The notes under the pieces: model-generated
Seen by the model: only the letters and a program-made list of their open reading frames with translations
Database searches by the model: none
What the model was told of the DNA's origin: nothing
Source: Methylobacterium organophilum
GTDB taxonomy: Bacteria; Pseudomonadota; Alphaproteobacteria; Rhizobiales; Beijerinckiaceae
Reading direction: 5' to 3'
DNA: 64,000 bases
Assembly: GCF_022179465.1 (NCBI RefSeq)
Contig: NZ_BPQV01000011.1
Span: 1-64,000 of the forward strand
Shown here: piece by piece, positions 37,234 to 45,143 of the stretch
Numbering within the stretch: position 1 is the first letter of the stretch
How the letters are laid out: each line of letters opens with the position of its first letter
Program-made: the position numbers and the translations under genes

Positions 37234-38070
37234 ATGACAGACCTCCAGCCCTACGGCACCTACGCTCCCACCGGCCTCGTCGCGCGCATCGCCGCGCATA
37301 CGCAGACCCTCTCCCCCCAAAGCTGGCGCGGGCGCCGCACCGCCATGCTCCTGCGCCGCATCGCGATCTCGATGCTGCGGGGCAAGCCCCTCGACGTGGA
37401 GCGCTACGGCGCCCGGATGCGGCTGCACCCCTACAACAACAATTGCGAGAAGAAGGTGCTGTTCACGCCGCAATTCTTCGACCCGGAGGAGCGGGCGCTG
37501 CTCAAGGCCCGCCTGCCCGAGAATGCGGTGTTCCTCGATATCGGGGCCAATATCGGGGCCTACGCCCTGTTCGTGGCGGCCTTTGCCGGGCGGAAGGCCC
37601 GCATCCTCGCCGTCGAGCCGCAGCCCGACGTGTTCGACAAGCTGATCTACAATATCGGCCAGAACCCCTTCGGCACGATCAAGGCGGTCGCCTGCGCCAT
37701 CGCCGACAAGGCCGGCGAGCTGACCCTGTTCATCGATCCGCGCAACCGCGGCGAATCGAGCGTGAAGATCGTCGGCACCAACCAGGGCGCGGAGATCCGC
37801 GTGCCGGCCATGACCCTGCTCGGCCTGTGCCAGAGCGAGGACATCACCCACATCGACGCGATCAAGCTCGACGTGGAGGGGGCGGAGGACCTGATCCTGG
37901 AGCCGTTCCTGCGCGAGGCGCCGGGCAGCCTGCACCCGAACCTGATCGTGGTGGAGAACGGCACCGACCAGTGGCAGCTCGACCTGCCGAAGCTGCTGGA
38001 GAGCTACGGCTACCGGCGCATCGCCCAGACCCGGCTCAACCTCGTCTTCGAGCGCGTCAGTCAGGGCTGA
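37234..38070 (+). CDS. FkbM family methyltransferase
   Basis: 278 residues from the ATG at 37234; an ATG at 37192 is an alternative. SAM-binding motif I VFLDIGANIGAYALFVAAFA (about 97-117), ILAVEPQPDVFDKL, and the FkbM motif IKLDVEGAEDLILEPFL (about 210). FkbM enzymes methylate sugars, lipids or natural products. The neighbourhood gives no pathway. The 3' end overlaps the sfsA 3' end by 14 bases on the opposite strand. Confidence 0.87.
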   Translation: MTDLQPYGTYAPTGLVARIAAHTQTLSPQSWRGRRTAMLLRRIAISMLRGKPLDVERYGARMRLHPYNNNCEKKVLFTPQFFDPEERALLKARLPENAVFLDIGANIGAYALFVAAFAGRKARILAVEPQPDVFDKLIYNIGQNPFGTIKAVACAIADKAGELTLFIDPRNRGESSVKIVGTNQGAEIRVPAMTLLGLCQSEDITHIDAIKLDVEGAEDLILEPFLREAPGSLHPNLIVVENGTDQWQLDLPKLLESYGYRRIAQTRLNLVFERVSQG

Positions 38071-38773
38071 CGATCGGGATCTCCTCCGCGATCGCGACGC
38101 CCTCCGGCCCGACCGCGCAGACATAGGCATGGGCCTCGACACCCGCCGCGCGGGCGGCACGGAAGGCCTTGTCGAAGGCCGGGTCGATGTCGCGGGCGAC
38201 GTCGAAGGCCTCGGCCCGCATCTGCACGACGACGATCAACAGGGCCCGGCCGCCCTGGGCCACCACATCGGCGAGCTCGGCCATGTGCCGGGCGCTCCGC
38301 GCCGCCTTGCAATCCGGGAACTCCGCGAGGCCGGCCCGGCGCATCAGGTGGCAGTTCTTCACCTCGACATGGCAGGGCGGTCGCCCCTCCCCCGTGGCCA
38401 GGAAGTCGACCCGGCTGGCCTTGCCGTAGGCGACCTCGGGGCGGAAGCCCACATAGCCCGCGAGCGGCGCGAGCCGACCCTCGCGAAAGGCTTCCGCCAC
38501 CAGGGCATTCGGGCGGCTCGTGTTGATGCCGACCCATTGCGGGCCGCCCGGCAGGTCCGCCTCCACCAGCTCCCAGGAATGGGCGAGCTTGCGGGCCGGG
38601 TTGGTGGAGCGGGAGAGCAGGACCCGGCTGCCCGGCGCGTTGAGCCCGAGCATCGCGCCGGGATTGGCGCAATGGGCCGTGATCAGGCTGCCATCGGCGA
38701 GTTCGACATCGGCGAGGAAGCGCTTGTAGCGCTGGACGAGGCGGCCCTCGGTCAGGGCTTCGGGGAAACGCAT
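38057..38773 (-). CDS. sfsA: SfsA family DNA/RNA nuclease (sugar fermentation stimulation protein A)
   Basis: 238 residues, full length. N-terminal OB-like domain (RLVQRYKRFLADVELADGSL, TAHCANPGAMLGL) followed by a PD-(D/E)xK-like nuclease domain (KASRVDFLAT, CHVEVKNCHLMR, FPDCKAARSARHMAEL). The name comes from an E. coli overexpression phenotype; nuclease activity has been inferred from the fold. It is the last core gene before the genomic island. Confidence 0.92.
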   Translation of the reverse strand: MRFPEALTEGRLVQRYKRFLADVELADGSLITAHCANPGAMLGLNAPGSRVLLSRSTNPARKLAHSWELVEADLPGGPQWVGINTSRPNALVAEAFREGRLAPLAGYVGFRPEVAYGKASRVDFLATGEGRPPCHVEVKNCHLMRRAGLAEFPDCKAARSARHMAELADVVAQGGRALLIVVVQMRAEAFDVARDIDPAFDKAFRAARAAGVEAHAYVCAVGPEGVAIAEEIPIVSPD

Positions 38774-38797: not shown

Positions 38798-38942
38798 CTA
38801 GCTGTGGATGGTCAACAGGTTGTCCTCGCTTGGACCGAGGCGGCTGATGGGTGTTGTGCTGTTGATGCCACCGTGTGGGCGGTGCCAGTTGTAGCGCAAC
38901 AGGAAGGCGGGCCGGTCTGCGCGGCGCTGCTCCGAGGTGTCG
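38798..38942 (-). pseudogene. IS481/IS3-type transposase, C-terminal remnant
   Basis: Minus-strand reading gives about 47 residues ending RYNWHRPHGGINSTTPISRL and EDNLLTIHS before a TAG at 38800-38798. The YNWHRPH..IN..P..RL pattern is the end of the rve-type integrase core in IS481-family transposases. Everything upstream of the SEQRRADRPAF stretch is replaced by the IS5-like fragment, so this is a truncated copy. Confidence 0.7.
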
Positions 38943-39561
38943 AGCCGCTTCTACCGCTGGCGCAAGGCCGGTTTGATCGACCGGGGGCTGCAGGCGCAGG
39001 CGGATGCACGTGGGGATCTCGACGGGGACCTGCATTGTGGACGCCACGATGGTGCGCGCCCATCAGTACGCCATCGGGAAACGCCGGTCCGGCGCCATCA
39101 GGGGGTAAGGCAACGGTCGAGGGCGTGGGCGAGACGCTCGGGCACAGCCAAGGCGGGTTCTCGACCAAGCTGCATCTGCGCGCCGAAGCCGGGGGCAAGC
39201 CGATGACGGCGGTGCTGACGGCGGGCGAGCGCCACGCGCCGTTTGCGCTGGATGCTCTGATGGACCGGGGTGCGGTGCCCCGCACCTGCGGCCGCGACGG
39301 ACGGCAGGTGATCGGGGCTATTCCAGTCCGCCGGCCCGTCGCCGCCTCGGAAAACGTCGGATCGAGCCGGTGATACCGATATGCAACGACCAGCCGCGTC
39401 AACCCGACTTCGACAAAGCCGCCTACCGCGAGCGCAGCGAGCTCGAGCGGCTGATCGGCCGGCTCGAGCAGTATCGCCGCATCGCCACACGCTACGAGAA
39501 GCGGGCGGCCAACTACCTCGCCATGGTCACGCTTGGCATGACCATGCTCTGGCTCATATGA
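38938..39561 (+). pseudogene. IS5-family transposase remnant, several frameshifts
   Basis: Pieces of one IS5-like transposase occur in order but in different frames: SRFYRWRKAGLIDR, then VDATMVRAHQYAIGKRRSGA (39030-39100) ended by a TAA, then GGFSTKLHLRAEAGGKPMTA and ALDALMDRGAVPRT. After a deletion come NQPRQPDFDKAAYRERSELE-type and RYEKRAANYLAMVTLGMTML segments, ending at 39561. The N-terminal part and most of the central catalytic region are missing. It cannot make an active enzyme. Confidence 0.8.
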
Positions 39562-39660
39562 CTTTGCAGAAACGCCCTGGTCTTCATCTTCCAAAGCCCC
39601 GGCGAAACGGTCAATTAATCTGGTCCAAAACATCCCCCATTTGGCGGGCCCCTATACTGA

Positions 39661-40560
39661 TTAAAACAATTTCAGAATACGGATTGTTCCGCGAAAATCT
39701 TCCTTAAAGCCTCCGCTCGCCGCGATGTCATGCTGTACCATTCCCAAAATCTGCCAATCAGGCGCTACAAATTTCGAGACTTCGAAGCGAATTTGATCGG
39801 CACGAGTTGCCGAACCATTCAGAATTCCGTCGAGCCTTTGGGCTCCGCCCATCAATTTCGAGTAACCAATTGCAAATCGCCAAGTCTGATCGCTTGGTGG
39901 AGAATAAGAAATCCAAGTCTGAAATTGGTAGCTTTGACTTTGGGTAAGCCTGCCAATGCCGCGCGTGAGTGCGTCTGAATTGGTGCCATACCACATTACA
40001 TCGCCAGCAAGCTGCCAATTGAAATCTTTCAAAAATTGCTGTTGAAGGCCCGCCTGGAGATCAAACTTCCAGCGGTTTTCGCCCATATTAAGCACCCTGC
40101 CAAAATCGTAATTGCCCACCGGGGCGAATAGATAGGGGGTTATGGCAAAGGCTGTTCCAGCTTGCTGGTTGTTTACGAGCCAGACAGGGGCTGCAAAGAT
40201 CAGATCGGCAACCCCCCATGTTGACCGAATTGGCTGGCCGCCGATTTTGGCATCAAAAAGACTACCGACGGGGATAAGCACTTGCGGAGCAATTGTCACT
40301 CCCCCAATATCCATATAGTGAACAAATCGAAATATTTCAACAGATGAGTCTAGGCTTGTTCCGTTCTTGATCTCCTGCCCGCCGATGGCTTGGTACGTGC
40401 TTCGTTGTGTGAAAGTCGTATAAAACGCCGCTATGGAAGTTCCATCAGGGGCGGGGATATAATCCATAGAGTTGAGATCGACGGCTTTGGCCGGCGTCGT
40501 TAAATGAACTGCAGACAACAATAGCCCACAGGTCAGCAGTTTTTTGATAGCGTATCTCAT
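39661..40560 (-). CDS. SphA/Phenol_MetA_deg-like outer-membrane protein
   Basis: 299 residues with a signal peptide (MRYAIKKLLTCGLLLSAVHL..., cleavage near AKA at about 26). The mature part starts VDLNSMDYIPAPDGTSIAAF, a typical opening of the Phenol_MetA_deg/SphA family, and continues with amphipathic strands (WGVADLIFAAPVWLVN, YLFAPVGNYDFGRVLNMGEN) to a C-terminal FRGTIRILKLF ending in Phe. That fits an outer-membrane barrel involved in uptake of hydrophobic compounds; in Pseudomonas aeruginosa SphA is induced by sphingosine through the AraC regulator SphR. Base composition is low in GC relative to the flanks. It is 218 bases downstream of the oxidase gene on the same strand. Confidence 0.8.
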   Translation of the reverse strand: MRYAIKKLLTCGLLLSAVHLTTPAKAVDLNSMDYIPAPDGTSIAAFYTTFTQRSTYQAIGGQEIKNGTSLDSSVEIFRFVHYMDIGGVTIAPQVLIPVGSLFDAKIGGQPIRSTWGVADLIFAAPVWLVNNQQAGTAFAITPYLFAPVGNYDFGRVLNMGENRWKFDLQAGLQQQFLKDFNWQLAGDVMWYGTNSDALTRGIGRLTQSQSYQFQTWISYSPPSDQTWRFAIGYSKLMGGAQRLDGILNGSATRADQIRFEVSKFVAPDWQILGMVQHDIAASGGFKEDFRGTIRILKLF

Positions 40561-40778: not shown

Positions 40779-42026
40779 TCAGCCTCGTGCTTCAGCCGAC
40801 TCCATCGGGTCGTAACCGCTGCTGCGGAAGAGTGTATGGAGCTGCCGGCGACGGACTCCCATGTTCCCGCCATCGTATAGCGGGAAGCAAATCGCGTCTT
40901 GCAGAAGACCCGCGAGAGGAAACATGTCAGTATAACTATCTATGCCGACAAGTCGCATCGCGTCATATACTGCCTGAACGCAAAGCTCTGAGGCATACAC
41001 CTTTGTTATAATTGCAAGTTCTTGACTTTTTGTGCCAGAATGATCGAATTGGTGGCAGGCTTTCCAAGTCAGGTAGCGCGCCGCTTCAATTTTCATTTTT
41101 ATGTCGGCCAACATGTAGCCAACATTTTGGTATTCGATCACCGGCACGCTGCCTGAGCGTTTGTCCGTCTTGGCGAATTGCAGCGCAACGTCGAAGGCGG
41201 TCCGCATGACGCCAACGCAGGCGGAGCCAATCAAAGCTGCTGTCCAAGAAAAGGCCGTCTCGACGATCTTGGCTCCCTCGCCGGGCTTTCCGATGATGTT
41301 GCTGGCCGGCACGCGCACACCATTGAAGTGCATTCGCGGCGAGTTGGTCGCGCGGTGTCCCATCGTATCAAGGATCCCCGCCACCTCGATCCCCGGAGCA
41401 TCACCCGGCACGAGAATGACGGCGAGCGACTCATTGGGAGGAAGCGTCGGGTCGGTGCGACAGACCACGCTATAGAGATGGGCACCAGAACCATCCCAGC
41501 CCGACCCGTTGGTGGTGTAATGCTTCTTGCCGGTAATGACCCATGAATCTCCATCGCGGTGCGCGAAAGTCTGCACGCCAGCTGATGGATCGGGGCAGTT
41601 GTAGTTGGAGCCCCCCGTAACCTCGGTGAAGGCAAGCGCGGCGAGACGGGAGCCGTCTTCCGCGAAGTCGGGGAGGAAGCGCTGCTTCTGTTCCGGTGTT
41701 CCGAACCGCAAGAGAGGCTGAAGCCCGAGGCCGGTGCCAAGGAGTGCCGTGGGTGTGTTGATGTCGACGGCCGCTAATTCCTCGGCGGCGATTGCGAAAT
41801 CGAGTGTGCTGACATTGGTGCCTCCAAACTCCTCCGGCAATAGTGCTTTGACAAATCCTGCCTCAACCATTGCCTCATAGAACGGGCGGATTGCGTAAAA
41901 ACGGCGATCAGGCTCGGCAATCTTTGCAATGGTGGGCCCGACGCGGCGCAGAACGTCCGCGCCGAATGTACGTGCTCCGCTTTGAAGCGCCTTCTGCGTA
42001 TCGCTGAGTGTGAAATCGATGGCCAC
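40779..42026 (-). CDS. acyl-CoA dehydrogenase-fold flavoenzyme, nitroalkane oxidase-like
   Basis: 415 residues from a GTG at 42026 with a strong GGAGGTGA upstream. The three ACAD domains are intact: helical N-terminal (1-125), middle beta (about 126-245, with WVITGKKHYTTNGSGWDGSG) and helical C-terminal (about 246-405). In ordinary acyl-CoA dehydrogenases of the MCAD type the catalytic base is Glu in a YEGT motif. Here the equivalent site reads PLYDGGNMGVRRRQ, with Asp385 and Arg392 at the places of Asp402 and Arg409 of Fusarium nitroalkane oxidase as I recall it. AFSWTAALIG also lines up with AFAMSAALVG there. It may oxidise a nitroalkane or another non-CoA substrate; a divergent acyl-CoA dehydrogenase is the alternative. 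Confidence 0.78.
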   Translation of the reverse strand: MAIDFTLSDTQKALQSGARTFGADVLRRVGPTIAKIAEPDRRFYAIRPFYEAMVEAGFVKALLPEEFGGTNVSTLDFAIAAEELAAVDINTPTALLGTGLGLQPLLRFGTPEQKQRFLPDFAEDGSRLAALAFTEVTGGSNYNCPDPSAGVQTFAHRDGDSWVITGKKHYTTNGSGWDGSGAHLYSVVCRTDPTLPPNESLAVILVPGDAPGIEVAGILDTMGHRATNSPRMHFNGVRVPASNIIGKPGEGAKIVETAFSWTAALIGSACVGVMRTAFDVALQFAKTDKRSGSVPVIEYQNVGYMLADIKMKIEAARYLTWKACHQFDHSGTKSQELAIITKVYASELCVQAVYDAMRLVGIDSYTDMFPLAGLLQDAICFPLYDGGNMGVRRRQLHTLFRSSGYDPMESAEARG

Positions 42027-42095
42027 CGTTCACCTCCCTGAGAGGCGGGATATCCGCCCGCTCGAGAAAGCTAGGCGCCTGACGAACGCGGCGTC

Positions 42096-42111
42096 TTGCA
42101 CATTCGTGCAA
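42096..42111. promoter_or_regulatory. palindromic operator candidate in the divergent promoter
   Basis: TTGCAC-ATTC-GTGCAA, a perfect 6+6 inverted repeat, lies 70 bases upstream of the oxidase start and 119 bases upstream of the AraC start. A further TGTGCA half-like sequence occurs at about 42125-42130. Position and symmetry suit binding by the neighbouring regulator, though AraC proteins usually prefer direct repeats. Confidence 0.45.
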
Positions 42112-42229
42112 ATGTCGTTGCCGATATGTGCAGATAAACCGCCTCAAAGCAGCCGAAACCACATTGGCACGATCGTTGCTGAAAAAGACACAATGATTAA
42201 ACGTCTTTATTACTACTTGAAAGTGTGCG

Positions 42230-43249
42230 ATGAAGACATGGACAACTCAGGGTGAGCCCCTACATCATCAATTTGGCTTCTGGCGAGAGGTTCTCTGTGA
42301 AGCCTTCGTTGCCCTCGACCCAGTGCGCAAGACCAATGAGGCTGGCTTTCGCGGAATGGTCAGCTCTCGGGTATTGAGGGACACGCTGCATAACGACATC
42401 ATGTCGGATGCTCAGTTCGTTAATCGAGGAATGAAAGAGATCCGCAGAGATCCGTGTGAGTATTATTTTGTAAATTTTCAGATAGATGGCTGTTGTATTG
42501 TCGAACAGGATGGAAAAGTATGCGAGGTTCGATCTGGTAATTTCGCCATCGTTGACACCACAAGACCATATTTTCTGGATATGCGGGATCAGTGGAGAAT
42601 CCGGTCGTTTCGCATCCCCCGCCATCAACTCTCTCCGAGGTTAGCCAACCTCCGTCACTCAACAGCCCGCTGCATATCAGGAGCATCAGGGGCAGGATTG
42701 ATTGCGGCGCAGTTCATGCGGTCGTTAGACATTATTGAAGAAAACTCTAGTCTAGACGTCCAAGACAATTTGAATCAATCATTGATTGCAGTCATAGCTG
42801 CCGCGTTAGGCTCTGCTCTAGAATTTGAGAATCGAGATTGTACACAGTCTCGCTTGGCAGTGAGACGCTCGATCGAGCGCTTTATCAGCGACAATCTGGC
42901 AGATCCATCGCTGTCACCGGATAAAATTTCGGCTAAATTCAAGATATCTCGACGACACCTTTACATGATTTTTGCTGATGATCCTAGCTCAATCAGCGAG
43001 ACCATTCGTAAAATGCGCCTGGATCGATGCGCGCGCGATTTGACATATTATAAAAATGCCAATGTATTCGATATAGCCTTGCGGTGGGGCTTCAATGAGC
43101 CATCTCATTTTTCACGCATATTTAAGAGACAATTTGGAATGTGCCCAAAAGACTATGCATCAAGCCTGAAAACGACTAGAGCGGCATCCGATCAGCGCGC
43201 CGAGGAGCATACGCGATGCGGACGGGATCAAGTTACAAGGGATGACTGA
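42230..43249 (+). CDS. AraC/XylS family transcriptional regulator
   Basis: 339 residues. The N-terminal effector domain resembles the AraC_binding_2 type (FGFWREVLCEAFVALDPVRK, GNFAIVDTTRPYFLDM). The C-terminal AraC HTH pair is clear: first helix-turn-helix around SPDKISAKFKISRRHLYMIF, second in NVFDIALRWGFNEPSHFSRI, closing with FKRQFGMCPKDYA. The gene is divergent from the oxidase gene with 203 bases between start codons, so it very probably controls that gene and the porin, and perhaps itself. The low-GC codon use matches the rest of the island cargo. Confidence 0.88.
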   Translation: MKTWTTQGEPLHHQFGFWREVLCEAFVALDPVRKTNEAGFRGMVSSRVLRDTLHNDIMSDAQFVNRGMKEIRRDPCEYYFVNFQIDGCCIVEQDGKVCEVRSGNFAIVDTTRPYFLDMRDQWRIRSFRIPRHQLSPRLANLRHSTARCISGASGAGLIAAQFMRSLDIIEENSSLDVQDNLNQSLIAVIAAALGSALEFENRDCTQSRLAVRRSIERFISDNLADPSLSPDKISAKFKISRRHLYMIFADDPSSISETIRKMRLDRCARDLTYYKNANVFDIALRWGFNEPSHFSRIFKRQFGMCPKDYASSLKTTRAASDQRAEEHTRCGRDQVTRDD

Positions 43250-43764: not shown

Positions 43765-44004
43765 ATGAAGCTCACCGTTCTTGCTGCCGCAGTCAGCATG
43801 GCAGCTTTCAGCCCAGCCCCCTCCTTCGCTCGGATTCTGCCAATATCGTTCGACGACGATGATTCGAAACAGACCATCAGAAGCGAACTGATCCAGAGGC
43901 AGAGTGAGGCGAAAATCTCGAAGGAAGTGGATCAAAAGAATCTCTTTGGACGTTTTATTTCCGCGAAACCAATCGCAACGGATATTTGCCCTAGCACAGA
44001 ATAA
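43765..44004 (+). CDS. small exported hypothetical protein at the island edge
   Basis: 79 residues with a clear signal peptide (MKLTVLAAAVSMAAFSPAPS, cleavage near SFA) and a GGAG 8 bases before the ATG. The mature part (RILPISFDDDDSKQTIRSEL) is acidic then basic and matches no family I know. The IS630-like remnant begins a few bases past the stop, so the original C-terminus may have been cut off by the insertion. Confidence 0.5.
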   Translation: MKLTVLAAAVSMAAFSPAPSFARILPISFDDDDSKQTIRSELIQRQSEAKISKEVDQKNLFGRFISAKPIATDICPSTE

Positions 44005-44009
44005 TATTC

Positions 44010-44350
44010 ATCTCGACGTGGTGAAGTCCGGGCTGTAGGCGGCAGGTAGAGTAGCTTGGCCGCAATGGCCCCGCGCGCACCGGCCACCCTATGAGCCTGC
44101 CGGTTGTCGAGGGTGACGGTGTCGCCGGGTCTGAGCACGGGCACGAGCATGTCGGTGACGTAGGCCCGGAAGCAGGCACCGTTGGTCGCTCCATCAAACA
44201 GGGTGGTGGCACACGGGCCATCGCTGCGCAGGGCGGCGGGGCCCGACCGTGGCGGCGCGCCATGTCGGTGGCCGCCGCCGTCGCGTGGAGGAAGACCGGC
44301 CTGTCGGGATCGAGGGCGTCGGCACCCCGTTGCGCACCGGCAAAGGCTGG
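44010..44350 (-). pseudogene. IS630-family transposase remnant
   Basis: Minus-strand pieces of a DDE transposase: DRPVFLHATAAATDMARRHG (where functional copies have FLDET, so the first catalytic Asp is lost), then after a deletion ATTLFDGATNGACFRAYVTD, LRPGDTVTLDNRQAHRVAGA (second Asp) and LLYLPP. A lost base in the CCGCCTAC stretch shifts the PYSPDF motif out of frame, and a TGA follows. Clearly inactive; it marks the right edge of the island. Confidence 0.75.
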
Positions 44351-44408
44351 TGGCGGCCGGCATTTCCGCTAGCTTCTGCGGCGATCGTCCTCCACCTCAA
44401 GAGCCCCG

Positions 44409-45143
44409 ATGCCCGACACCCTCGTTACCGCCGCCATCCTCGTCATCGGCGACGAGATCCTGTCCGGGCGCACCAAGGACAAGAACATCGGCGCCATCGC
44501 CGACCGCCTGACCGAAACGGGCATCGACCTGCGCGAGGTGCGCATCGTCCCCGACGAGCAGGCGGAGATCGTCGCCGCGGTGAACGCCCTGCGCGCGCGC
44601 TACACCTACCTGTTCACCACCGGCGGCATCGGCCCGACCCACGACGACATCACCGCCGACAGCGTCGCCGCCGCCTTCGGGGTCGGGATCGATGTCGACG
44701 AGCGCGCCCGGGCCATGCTGCTGGAGCGAATCAAGCCGGAGGACCTCAACGAGGCGCGCCTGCGCATGGCCCGCATCCCCTTCGGGGCCGACCTCATCGC
44801 CAACCCGATCTCGAAGGCGCCGGGCTTCCGCATCGGCAACGTCTTCGTCATGGCCGGCGTGCCGCAGATCATGAACGCCATGCTCGACGAGATCGTCCCG
44901 ACGCTGACCTCGAACGCGCCGGTGATCTCGCGGACCCTCGAGGCCGCCAACACCCCAGAGGGCACCTTCGCCGGGGCCCTGGCGCTGATCGCCAAGGCCC
45001 ATGCCAGCGTCTCGATCGGCTCCTATCCCTCGATGACGCCGCAGGGCTTCCTGAACCGCATCGTGGTGCGCGGGCGCGATGCCGCCGCGGTCGAGGCCGC
45101 CGCCACGGCGGTCGAGGCGATGCTGGCCGGGCTGACGCGATGA
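44409..45143 (+). CDS. CinA N-terminal/MoaB-like molybdopterin-binding-fold protein
   Basis: 244 residues. MoCF-biosynthesis fold: AAILVIGDEILSGRTKDKNI at the start, TTGGIGPTHDDITADSVAAA, and NVFVMAGVPQIMNAMLDEIV. It matches the N-terminal half of CinA (competence/damage-inducible protein A) but lacks the C-terminal nicotinamide-nucleotide deamidase domain. The role of such stand-alone proteins is not settled. In related genomes a gene of this kind neighbours sfsA, so the island appears to have split an old neighbourhood. Confidence 0.87.
   Translation: MPDTLVTAAILVIGDEILSGRTKDKNIGAIADRLTETGIDLREVRIVPDEQAEIVAAVNALRARYTYLFTTGGIGPTHDDITADSVAAAFGVGIDVDERARAMLLERIKPEDLNEARLRMARIPFGADLIANPISKAPGFRIGNVFVMAGVPQIMNAMLDEIVPTLTSNAPVISRTLEAANTPEGTFAGALALIAKAHASVSIGSYPSMTPQGFLNRIVVRGRDAAAVEAAATAVEAMLAGLTR

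Follow-up and report, generated by a model that had tools for sequence, protein, structure and literature searches.

A bacterial nitroalkane-oxidase-like flavoenzyme beside a FeaR-type regulator in a foreign insertion of Methylobacterium organophilum

The window analysed here is a stretch of 64,000 nucleotides from Methylobacterium organophilum (contig NZ_BPQV01000011.1, positions 1 to 64,000), and our subject is a gene at 40779..42026 on its reverse strand that a sequence-only reading had taken for a nitroalkane-oxidase-like flavoenzyme in a bacterial island. Nitroalkane oxidase is EC 1.7.3.1; the solved nitroalkane oxidases of acyl-CoA dehydrogenase fold in the Protein Data Bank (PDB) come from two fungi, and to our knowledge the fungal enzymes have no described physiological role or genomic setting. 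The gene sits between sfsA and a cinA-like gene in a 5.6-kb low-GC foreign insertion, which it shares with a divergent FeaR-type AraC regulator and a co-directional downstream Phenol_MetA_deg protein, likely a channel. The features of the locus are the following.

38057..38773, reverse strand: sfsA, the left chromosomal flank (PF03749)
38936..39581, strand not assigned: left-edge mobile-element remnant with broken frames, its likeness to an IS5-type transposase seen by eye only
39661..40560, reverse strand: Phenol_MetA_deg outer-membrane-type protein (PF13557, E 3e-34), 3' of the oxidase gene and read in the same direction
40779..42026, reverse strand: nitroalkane-oxidase-like flavoenzyme of 415 amino acids (D385 codon 40872-40874; R392 codon 40851-40853; T262 codon 41241-41243)
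42027..42229, strand not assigned: divergent intergenic region, a weak candidate for a regulator site, with the inverted repeat TTGCAC-ATTC-GTGCAA at 42096-42111
42230..43249, forward strand: FeaR-type AraC regulator (Pfam AraC_binding_2 and HTH_18), divergent from the oxidase gene across a 203-bp gap
43932..44363, reverse strand: right-edge transposase fragment, DDE_3 (PF13358, E 1.8e-5, 25.0 bits, under the cut-off of 28.6)
44409..45143, forward strand: cinA/MoCF_biosynth-like gene, the right chromosomal flank (PF00994)

The oxidase reading frame is intact, opening with GTG and running through 415 codons with no internal stop, and a GGGAGG-like ribosome site, read by eye from the sequence, stands just 5' of the start. 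Its translation contains all three motifs named beforehand and quoted in the sequence-only reading, RFYAIRPFYEAMVEAGFVKA, WVITGKKHYTTNGSGWDGSG and PLYDGGNMGVRRRQ, and Pfam recognizes three acyl-CoA dehydrogenase domains, while a search of NCBIfam returned nothing above any curated cut-off (the top of 20 matches being acryloyl-CoA reductase, 177 bits, cut-off 640). Searched against the PDB with phmmer, the protein retrieved nitroalkane oxidases as its top seven sequences (263–272 bits, E 4e-77 to 9e-80), followed by a Thermus acyl-CoA dehydrogenase at 172 bits, a lead of 90–100 bits in line with the resemblance to nitroalkane oxidase stated in the sequence-only reading. A profile built from 52 sequences (51 bacterial relatives besides the window protein) placed the same seven on top (364–369 versus <=238 bits). 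Identity is 37.7% to the Fusarium enzyme over 406 aligned columns and 39.8% to the Podospora enzyme over 407.

The predicted structure leads to the same family. An AlphaFold model built with the 52 sequences (mean pLDDT 93.8, pTM 0.91) was compared with the PDB by Foldseek, where ranks 1–10 were all nitroalkane oxidases (E 1e-32 to 4e-30, template modelling (TM) score by query 0.93–0.94) and rank 11 was a medium-chain acyl-CoA dehydrogenase (E 6e-27, TM 0.84); the seven matches after the nitroalkane oxidases were all acyl-CoA dehydrogenases (TM by query 0.84–0.86). Within the acyl-CoA dehydrogenase fold, which Pfam and Foldseek agree on as had been anticipated, the modelled fold is closest to nitroalkane oxidase structures.

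Alignment with the Fusarium enzyme equates its Asp402, Arg409, Ser276 and Tyr398 with Asp385, Arg392, Thr262 and Phe381 of the window protein. Asp385 occupies the position of the usual dehydrogenase Glu and Arg392 follows seven residues on, at the Fusarium spacing, just as the sequence-only reading had them; the implicated serine, which it read as Thr, is Thr262, keeping the hydroxyl of Ser276 though not the same residue. Titles of PDB entries present Arg409 and Asp402 as residues under mechanistic study and S276A as an active-site mutant. Acyl-CoA dehydrogenases such as MCAD and SCAD use a catalytic Glu where the window protein has Asp. We take the catalytic Glu sites of CoA-dependent dehydrogenases to be the MCAD-376 position or helix G, and the Ser276 position to be the helix-G site used in some of them (isovaleryl-CoA, long-chain); neither site holds Glu in the window protein, Asp385 and Thr262 standing there, so the alternative base elsewhere for which a check had been proposed was not found.

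These residues are conserved well beyond the window. A family scan of named genomes gave 248 pattern-matching stretches, 220 of them coding a relative, and among the best 80 taken the Arg409 equivalent is kept in 80/80, this Arg lying outside both scan patterns. The Asp402 equivalent is likewise present in 80/80, a figure partly selected because one of the two patterns, P[LIV][YF]DGGNM, contains the Asp. The Ser276 position carries Thr in 77 loci, Ser in three and Glu in none of the 80; since L036 (loci are given by our own handles where they must be told apart), a member of the window's own four-row clade, has Ser there, Thr and Ser evidently interchange at this site. Nor is the Tyr398 position defining, because the Podospora nitroalkane oxidase has Leu in its place.

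Two trees, a quick one of 103 rows and a careful one drawn from 44 of them, concur in their main features. The careful tree includes the two proven (fungal) nitroalkane oxidases and four ordinary acyl-CoA dehydrogenases, omits four long-branch rows (the host dehydrogenases own_L005, own_L008 and own_L015, and L024_ACAD), and had its groups named after it was seen. The bacterial Asp/Arg proteins, the two fungal oxidases and a sister group with Gln at the Arg409 site unite in one clade (100/100) separate from the four ordinary dehydrogenases, and L030, with Glu and Arg, falls inside it; both fungal oxidases lie in an 8-row group (100/99) whose remaining members are bacterial. By approximately unbiased (AU) tests, a clade of the 28 core bacterial rows without the fungi was rejected (AU p = 0.0026), as was a single group of the window's four-row clade with the four ordinary dehydrogenases (AU p = 0.0013); a constraint joining all 33 Asp/Arg-type rows in one clade was not rejected (p = 0.35), one such row, L107, being placed weakly (81/58) with the Gln group in the best tree. 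The tree check agrees with the sequence-only reading, with the window protein beside fungal nitroalkane oxidases and away from CoA-dependent dehydrogenases. The window gene is a member of a bacterial family spread over several phyla, inside which the two fungal enzymes nest, and a bacterium-to-fungus transfer is likely, as judged from two fungal rows. Close relatives of the window protein, at 75–76% identity, are L033, L035 and L043, and its relatives on plasmids are annotated 'acyl-CoA dehydrogenase family protein'.

Several members of the wider family deserve separate mention. The sister family keeps the Asp, has Gln for Arg409 (its motif is typically DAGNxxMQ) and often comes as a pair of neighbouring copies (L027 8001-9317 and 5567-6871; L029 7995-9299 and 5985-7295; also L018/L019); an Rrf2 regulator accompanies the pairs in L027 and L029, and the locus of Sulfitobacter S190 (L027) adjoins genes annotated as electron-transfer flavoprotein (ETF) type, which suggests a dehydrogenase relative. 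Rhodococcus sp. USK13 (L030 7989-9224) has Glu at the catalytic Asp position, keeps Arg409 and Ser, and adjoins an aldehyde dehydrogenase gene. L045, on a contig labelled as a Klebsiella pneumoniae metagenome-assembled genome, pairs with the gammaproteobacterium Ga0077536 (L057) in the quick tree, and the contig is possibly mis-binned. On pLA3 of Novosphingobium US6-1 (L026), a 40%-identical member follows AraC-type and TonB-receptor genes, with paaK and paaZ of phenylacetate degradation ~5 kb further on, past transposase genes.

The insertion itself is marked by composition, gene order and distribution. GC content is 0.49–0.61 in 1-kb windows over ~39.0–44.5 kb versus 0.66–0.76 on either side, and sfsA and the cinA-like gene, 5.6 kb apart in the window, are direct neighbours in 11/11 congeneric loci compared, sfsA being present in all 31 genomes searched (30 congeners besides the window's own). 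At E <= 1e-60 the oxidase gene occurs in 0/59 other congeneric genomes and, outside its own genome, in one genome of a family-wide sample of 198, some of them congeners, this sole positive holding two sister-group copies with Gln. The island proposed from the letters alone is borne out by these results, and GC together with the empty insertion site argues for import of the gene and not host paralogy; derivation from a host dehydrogenase was rejected, relatives in the same genome being no more than 35% identical (29–30% for the two with the best E-values). A codon-usage gene caller misses the island genes of the window, whose composition is foreign, and longest-ORF calling yields many antisense artefacts. 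DNA at the left edge is 82% identical to DNA found twice on a Methylobacterium phyllosphaerae plasmid, where it is unannotated, and three open reading frames (ORFs) over 38936..39581 gave no Pfam match; the DDE_3 fragment at the right edge is presumably IS630-type.

The regulator's best NCBIfam match is FeaR (PRK09685) at 164 bits, and because this lies under the cut-off of 199 we call it FeaR-type and not FeaR. The motif GCAC-N4-GTGC occurs in 3/42 upstream regions of the family versus 0/42 downstream controls, and the window's inverted repeat at 42096-42111 is not general among relatives. A conserved regulator site 5' of the oxidase gene was sought and dismissed, the 8-mers of the 42 upstream regions being mostly GC-rich, like those of the downstream control.

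To place the locus among its relatives, we compared 88 loci, namely the 80 of the genome scan, the window and seven plasmid loci (L021-L026 and L030), leaving out L020 (the same record as L052), the Gln-group loci L027-L029 and an ordinary dehydrogenase, L031. Neighbours were counted from tblastn matches at E <= 1e-8, as near within 4.5 kb and far beyond 5.5 kb, over 758 kb of near and 651 kb of far flank. A FeaR-type regulator is near in 66/88 loci and far in none, one further locus falling between the limits, and in 64 no more than 1.5 kb separates it from the oxidase gene; 15 control loci of other acyl-CoA-dehydrogenase-like matches in the window's genome (1.5-kb flanks, some genes entering twice) had no FeaR-type match. 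The AraC link that the sequence-only reading thought notable accordingly stands (42230-43249, FeaR-type), but the supposed oddity of a bacterial version does not, with 80 bacterial loci carrying the Asp/Arg pair and the fungi nesting among them. Aldehyde dehydrogenase is near in 14/88 and far in three, one of which also has a near copy; near and far counts are 7 (window included) and 2 for the Phenol_MetA protein, 10 and 3 for amidase, and 2 and 1 for NirB, which is found with NirD in 3/88. Thinning to 42 representatives at 80% identity left near/far counts of 24/0 for the FeaR-type regulator, 8/2 for aldehyde dehydrogenase, 2/1 for Phenol_MetA, 1/0 for NirB, 1/2 for amidase and 0/0 for aldoxime dehydratase. 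With each group represented after thinning by its first member, the aldoxime dehydratase link rests on three unthinned loci, L021, L053 and L089 (one near, one far and, in L053, one between the limits). EtfA and EtfB had no match anywhere in the 88 loci, which fits O2 as the electron acceptor.

Nitrile hydratase alpha lies inside 7/88 loci (L033, L035, L043, L044, L053, L067 and L089), near the oxidase gene in the close relatives L033, L035 and L043. As a yardstick, 190 genomes of the class show 85 near full-length copies, in <=65 genomes, among the matches listed, or ~0.0025 per 20 kb for an assumed mean genome of ~3.6 Mb, so that ~0.2 would be expected in 88 loci; the size of this excess is uncertain, given a one-class yardstick and the close relationship of three of the seven loci.

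Individual loci show how such genes are combined. Shinella plasmid p2 (L020/L052) carries aldehyde dehydrogenase, oxidase, FeaR-type regulator and Phenol_MetA protein, with cysG, nirD, nirB and GTP cyclohydrolase II ~4.5–9.6 kb upstream, and Mangrovicoccus (L086) has the oxidase with a FeaR-type match, an NtaA/DmoA monooxygenase, a flavin-reductase-like gene, lumazine synthase, and nirB followed by a NirD match. Rhizobium sp. CG5 (L053) combines aldehyde dehydrogenase, oxidase, regulator, chemoreceptor, aldoxime dehydratase, amidase, Phenol_MetA protein and nitrile hydratase, and Gordonia lacunae (L089) an AraC/FeaR-type regulator, oxidase, aldehyde dehydrogenase, amidase, nitrile hydratase and an aldoxime dehydratase match, its aldehyde dehydrogenase matching phenylacetaldehyde dehydrogenase StyD best in NCBIfam (590 bits, under the cut-off of 850). 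The NtaA/DmoA luciferase-type monooxygenase is near the oxidase in eight loci (L054, L055, L060, L063, L111, L086, L090 and L045), seven of them with a flavin reductase. Chemoreceptor genes stand near the oxidase in L022 and L053, where they are of PAS type, and in L068 and L069, a hint that cells may move towards the oxidase substrate by chemotaxis. In the window's genome we found no match to nitrile hydratase (PF02979), for aldoxime dehydratase only a weak sub-threshold match of 21 bits, and a best match to the NirB model of 398 bits, under its cut-off of 578.

Comparison with known systems sharpens the assignment. With Fusarium oxysporum nitroalkane oxidase (PDB 2c0u, 3d9d-3d9g, 2zaf and 2reh) the window protein has in common the fold (TM 0.93), a similar length, and the Asp402/Arg409 pair with its spacing; unlike that enzyme it has Thr262 for Ser276 and Phe381 for Tyr398, and it is bacterial, its gene lying on a mobile island next to those of a FeaR-type regulator and a probable channel. 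The Podospora anserina enzyme (PDB 3mkh) has the same Asp/Arg pair and, with Leu at that site, also lacks the Tyr398 residue, but it is fungal and has Ser where the window protein has Thr262. Acyl-CoA dehydrogenases (MCAD, SCAD and Thermus 1ukw) share overall fold and domain architecture with it, yet are 90–100 bits more distant, and the ordinary ones tested form a separate clade. Nitronate monooxygenase is an unrelated TIM-barrel FMN enzyme acting on anionic nitronate, and the Streptomyces 'nitroalkane oxidase' is presumably of that type and not of the acyl-CoA dehydrogenase fold. Nitronate monooxygenase (PF03060) represents a bacterial nitroalkane route, to which the window's genome has weak matches only, the best at 36 bits. 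PMC11510023 describes degradation of alkyl nitro compounds such as 2-nitropropane by nitronate monooxygenase and gives the Streptomyces enzyme the name nitroalkane oxidase. Rhodococcus JS3073 is cited as a 4-nitroanisole degrader, which has no bearing on the oxidase gene.

Homology, predicted fold, active-site residues and phylogeny together argue strongly that the window protein is a nitroalkane oxidase, and we consider it probable, on these sequence-based grounds, that it forms the catabolic core of a horizontally acquired cassette with a channel and a divergent FeaR-type regulator. From the same lines of evidence, with gene linkage and the insertion, we infer the reaction, substrate and regulatory input that follow. 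In the Fusarium enzyme, Asp abstracts a proton, the carbanion attacks flavin N5, nitrite is lost, hydrolysis gives the aldehyde and O2 reoxidizes the flavin. By the same mechanism Asp385 would take the alpha proton of a neutral nitroalkane, supported by Arg392, with Thr262 hydrogen-bonding near the flavin; the carbanion would attack N5 of FAD, nitrite would leave, the adduct would hydrolyse to an aldehyde, and O2 would reoxidize the flavin to yield H2O2. An N5-flavin adduct is stated for nitroalkane oxidase in PMC3509576. The regulator probably senses the substrate or the aldehyde product, and in relatives the aldehyde may pass to the neighbouring aldehyde dehydrogenase and the nitrite to NirBD; as neighbours, aldehyde dehydrogenase, nitrite reductase and the FeaR-type regulator fit the products of a nitroalkane oxidase. 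Aromatic amine catabolism by tynA-feaB in E. coli likewise sets a FeaR-type AraC regulator beside an aldehyde-producing oxidase (predicted as such in the window), although that oxidase is a copper amine oxidase whereas ours is of nitroalkane oxidase type with a regulator under the FeaR cut-off. FeaR activates the phenylacetaldehyde dehydrogenase gene feaB in E. coli, according to PMC4640556.

The substrate in the window could be any nitroalkane, the island holding just oxidase, regulator and channel, and perhaps the oxidase serves plant nitro volatiles. Tobacco expressing maize CYP79A61 gave off phenylacetaldehyde, benzyl cyanide and 2-phenylnitroethane along with a small amount of phenylacetaldoxime, and in maize itself after caterpillar secretion volatile aldoximes, nitriles and nitro compounds were undetectable (PMC4446944); Erythroxylum after jasmonate emits aldoximes, benzyl cyanide and phenylnitroethane (PMC5050915). 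That some loci bring the oxidase together with aldoxime dehydratase, nitrile hydratase and amidase, set beside these emissions, suggests a programme for plant nitrogenous volatiles. As a more tentative extension, which we think rather less likely than its negation, the bacterial family would be the missing nitro arm of such catabolism and the source of the fungal nitroalkane oxidases. Plants would then release aldoxime, nitrile and 2-phenylnitroethane together, the first two being handled by aldoxime dehydratase, nitrile hydratase and amidase and the last by the oxidase and aldehyde dehydrogenase, with a FeaR-type regulator in control and in some cases a chemoreceptor as well.

Several observations weigh against a nitroalkane oxidase cassette. 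Identity to proven nitroalkane oxidases is only 38–40%, Thr stands in place of Ser276, and the literature searched yielded no activity data for the window protein or its bacterial relatives. No FeaR-type gene lies within 4.5 kb in 22/88 loci, some on short contigs; among these is L036, which the careful tree puts with the three relatives nearest to the window protein; aldehyde dehydrogenase is near in only 14/88 loci and NirB in 2/88, and both are missing from the window island. Absence of ETF genes is weak evidence, since they need not adjoin a dehydrogenase, and the nitrile, amidase and aldoxime genes that adjoin certain relatives leave room for another nitrogenous substrate.

That last point underlies the alternative that survives best, although we judge it improbable: an enzyme with the acyl-CoA dehydrogenase fold that works as oxidase or monooxygenase on some other nitrogenous compound (aldoxime, amine or hydroxylamine) in aldoxime-nitrile-amide catabolism. 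N-hydroxylases of this fold exist, KijD3 being an example, and besides nitrile hydratase alpha inside 7/88 loci and aldoxime dehydratase inside 3/88, an NtaA/DmoA-type monooxygenase is near in 8/88 and flavin reductase in 7–8/88; yet the Asp/Arg pair of a carbanion-forming oxidase is conserved, proven nitroalkane oxidases nest in the family, and 80/88 loci had no match to two flavin-reductase queries. Considerably less credible is an ordinary CoA-dependent acyl-CoA dehydrogenase with Asp for the catalytic Glu, working in acid breakdown after nitrile or aldehyde oxidation. It could appeal to the fold and Pfam domains, to the annotation of plasmid relatives, and to a gene cluster of AMP-binding (acyl-CoA ligase) type near in 7/88 loci (Pfam assigned from one member), but scores, tree and the missing Glu disfavour it: the protein is 90–100 bits closer to nitroalkane oxidases, the AU test rejects grouping it with the four ordinary dehydrogenases, and the Ser276 site has Glu in 0/80 loci, with an ETF match in 0/88. 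A decayed or silent hitchhiker with no present function is scarcely believable, for while the island edges are broken mobile-element remnants and 0/59 other congeneric genomes have the gene, all three ORFs of the island read through at the length usual for their families, the Asp, the Arg and a hydroxyl residue have been retained, and regulator and channel stay beside the oxidase as in some relatives.

The first reading of the window protein as a nitroalkane-oxidase-like enzyme is thus supported, and what is new is the bacterial family, its frequent regulator partner and a partly coherent pathway neighbourhood; our literature search, whose coverage left out most subscription papers, turned up no title or abstract opening on this bacterial family. 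Such a family, with regulators, channels and pathway neighbours, offers testable biology in its inducer, its substrate and the fate of nitrite, and would refine the annotation of at least 80 genome loci whose plasmid relatives are called acyl-CoA dehydrogenase family proteins. It may also supply new enzymes for nitroalkane clean-up and biocatalysis, and with the fungal enzymes nested in a bacterial tree, the origin of the fungal enzyme becomes an answerable question.

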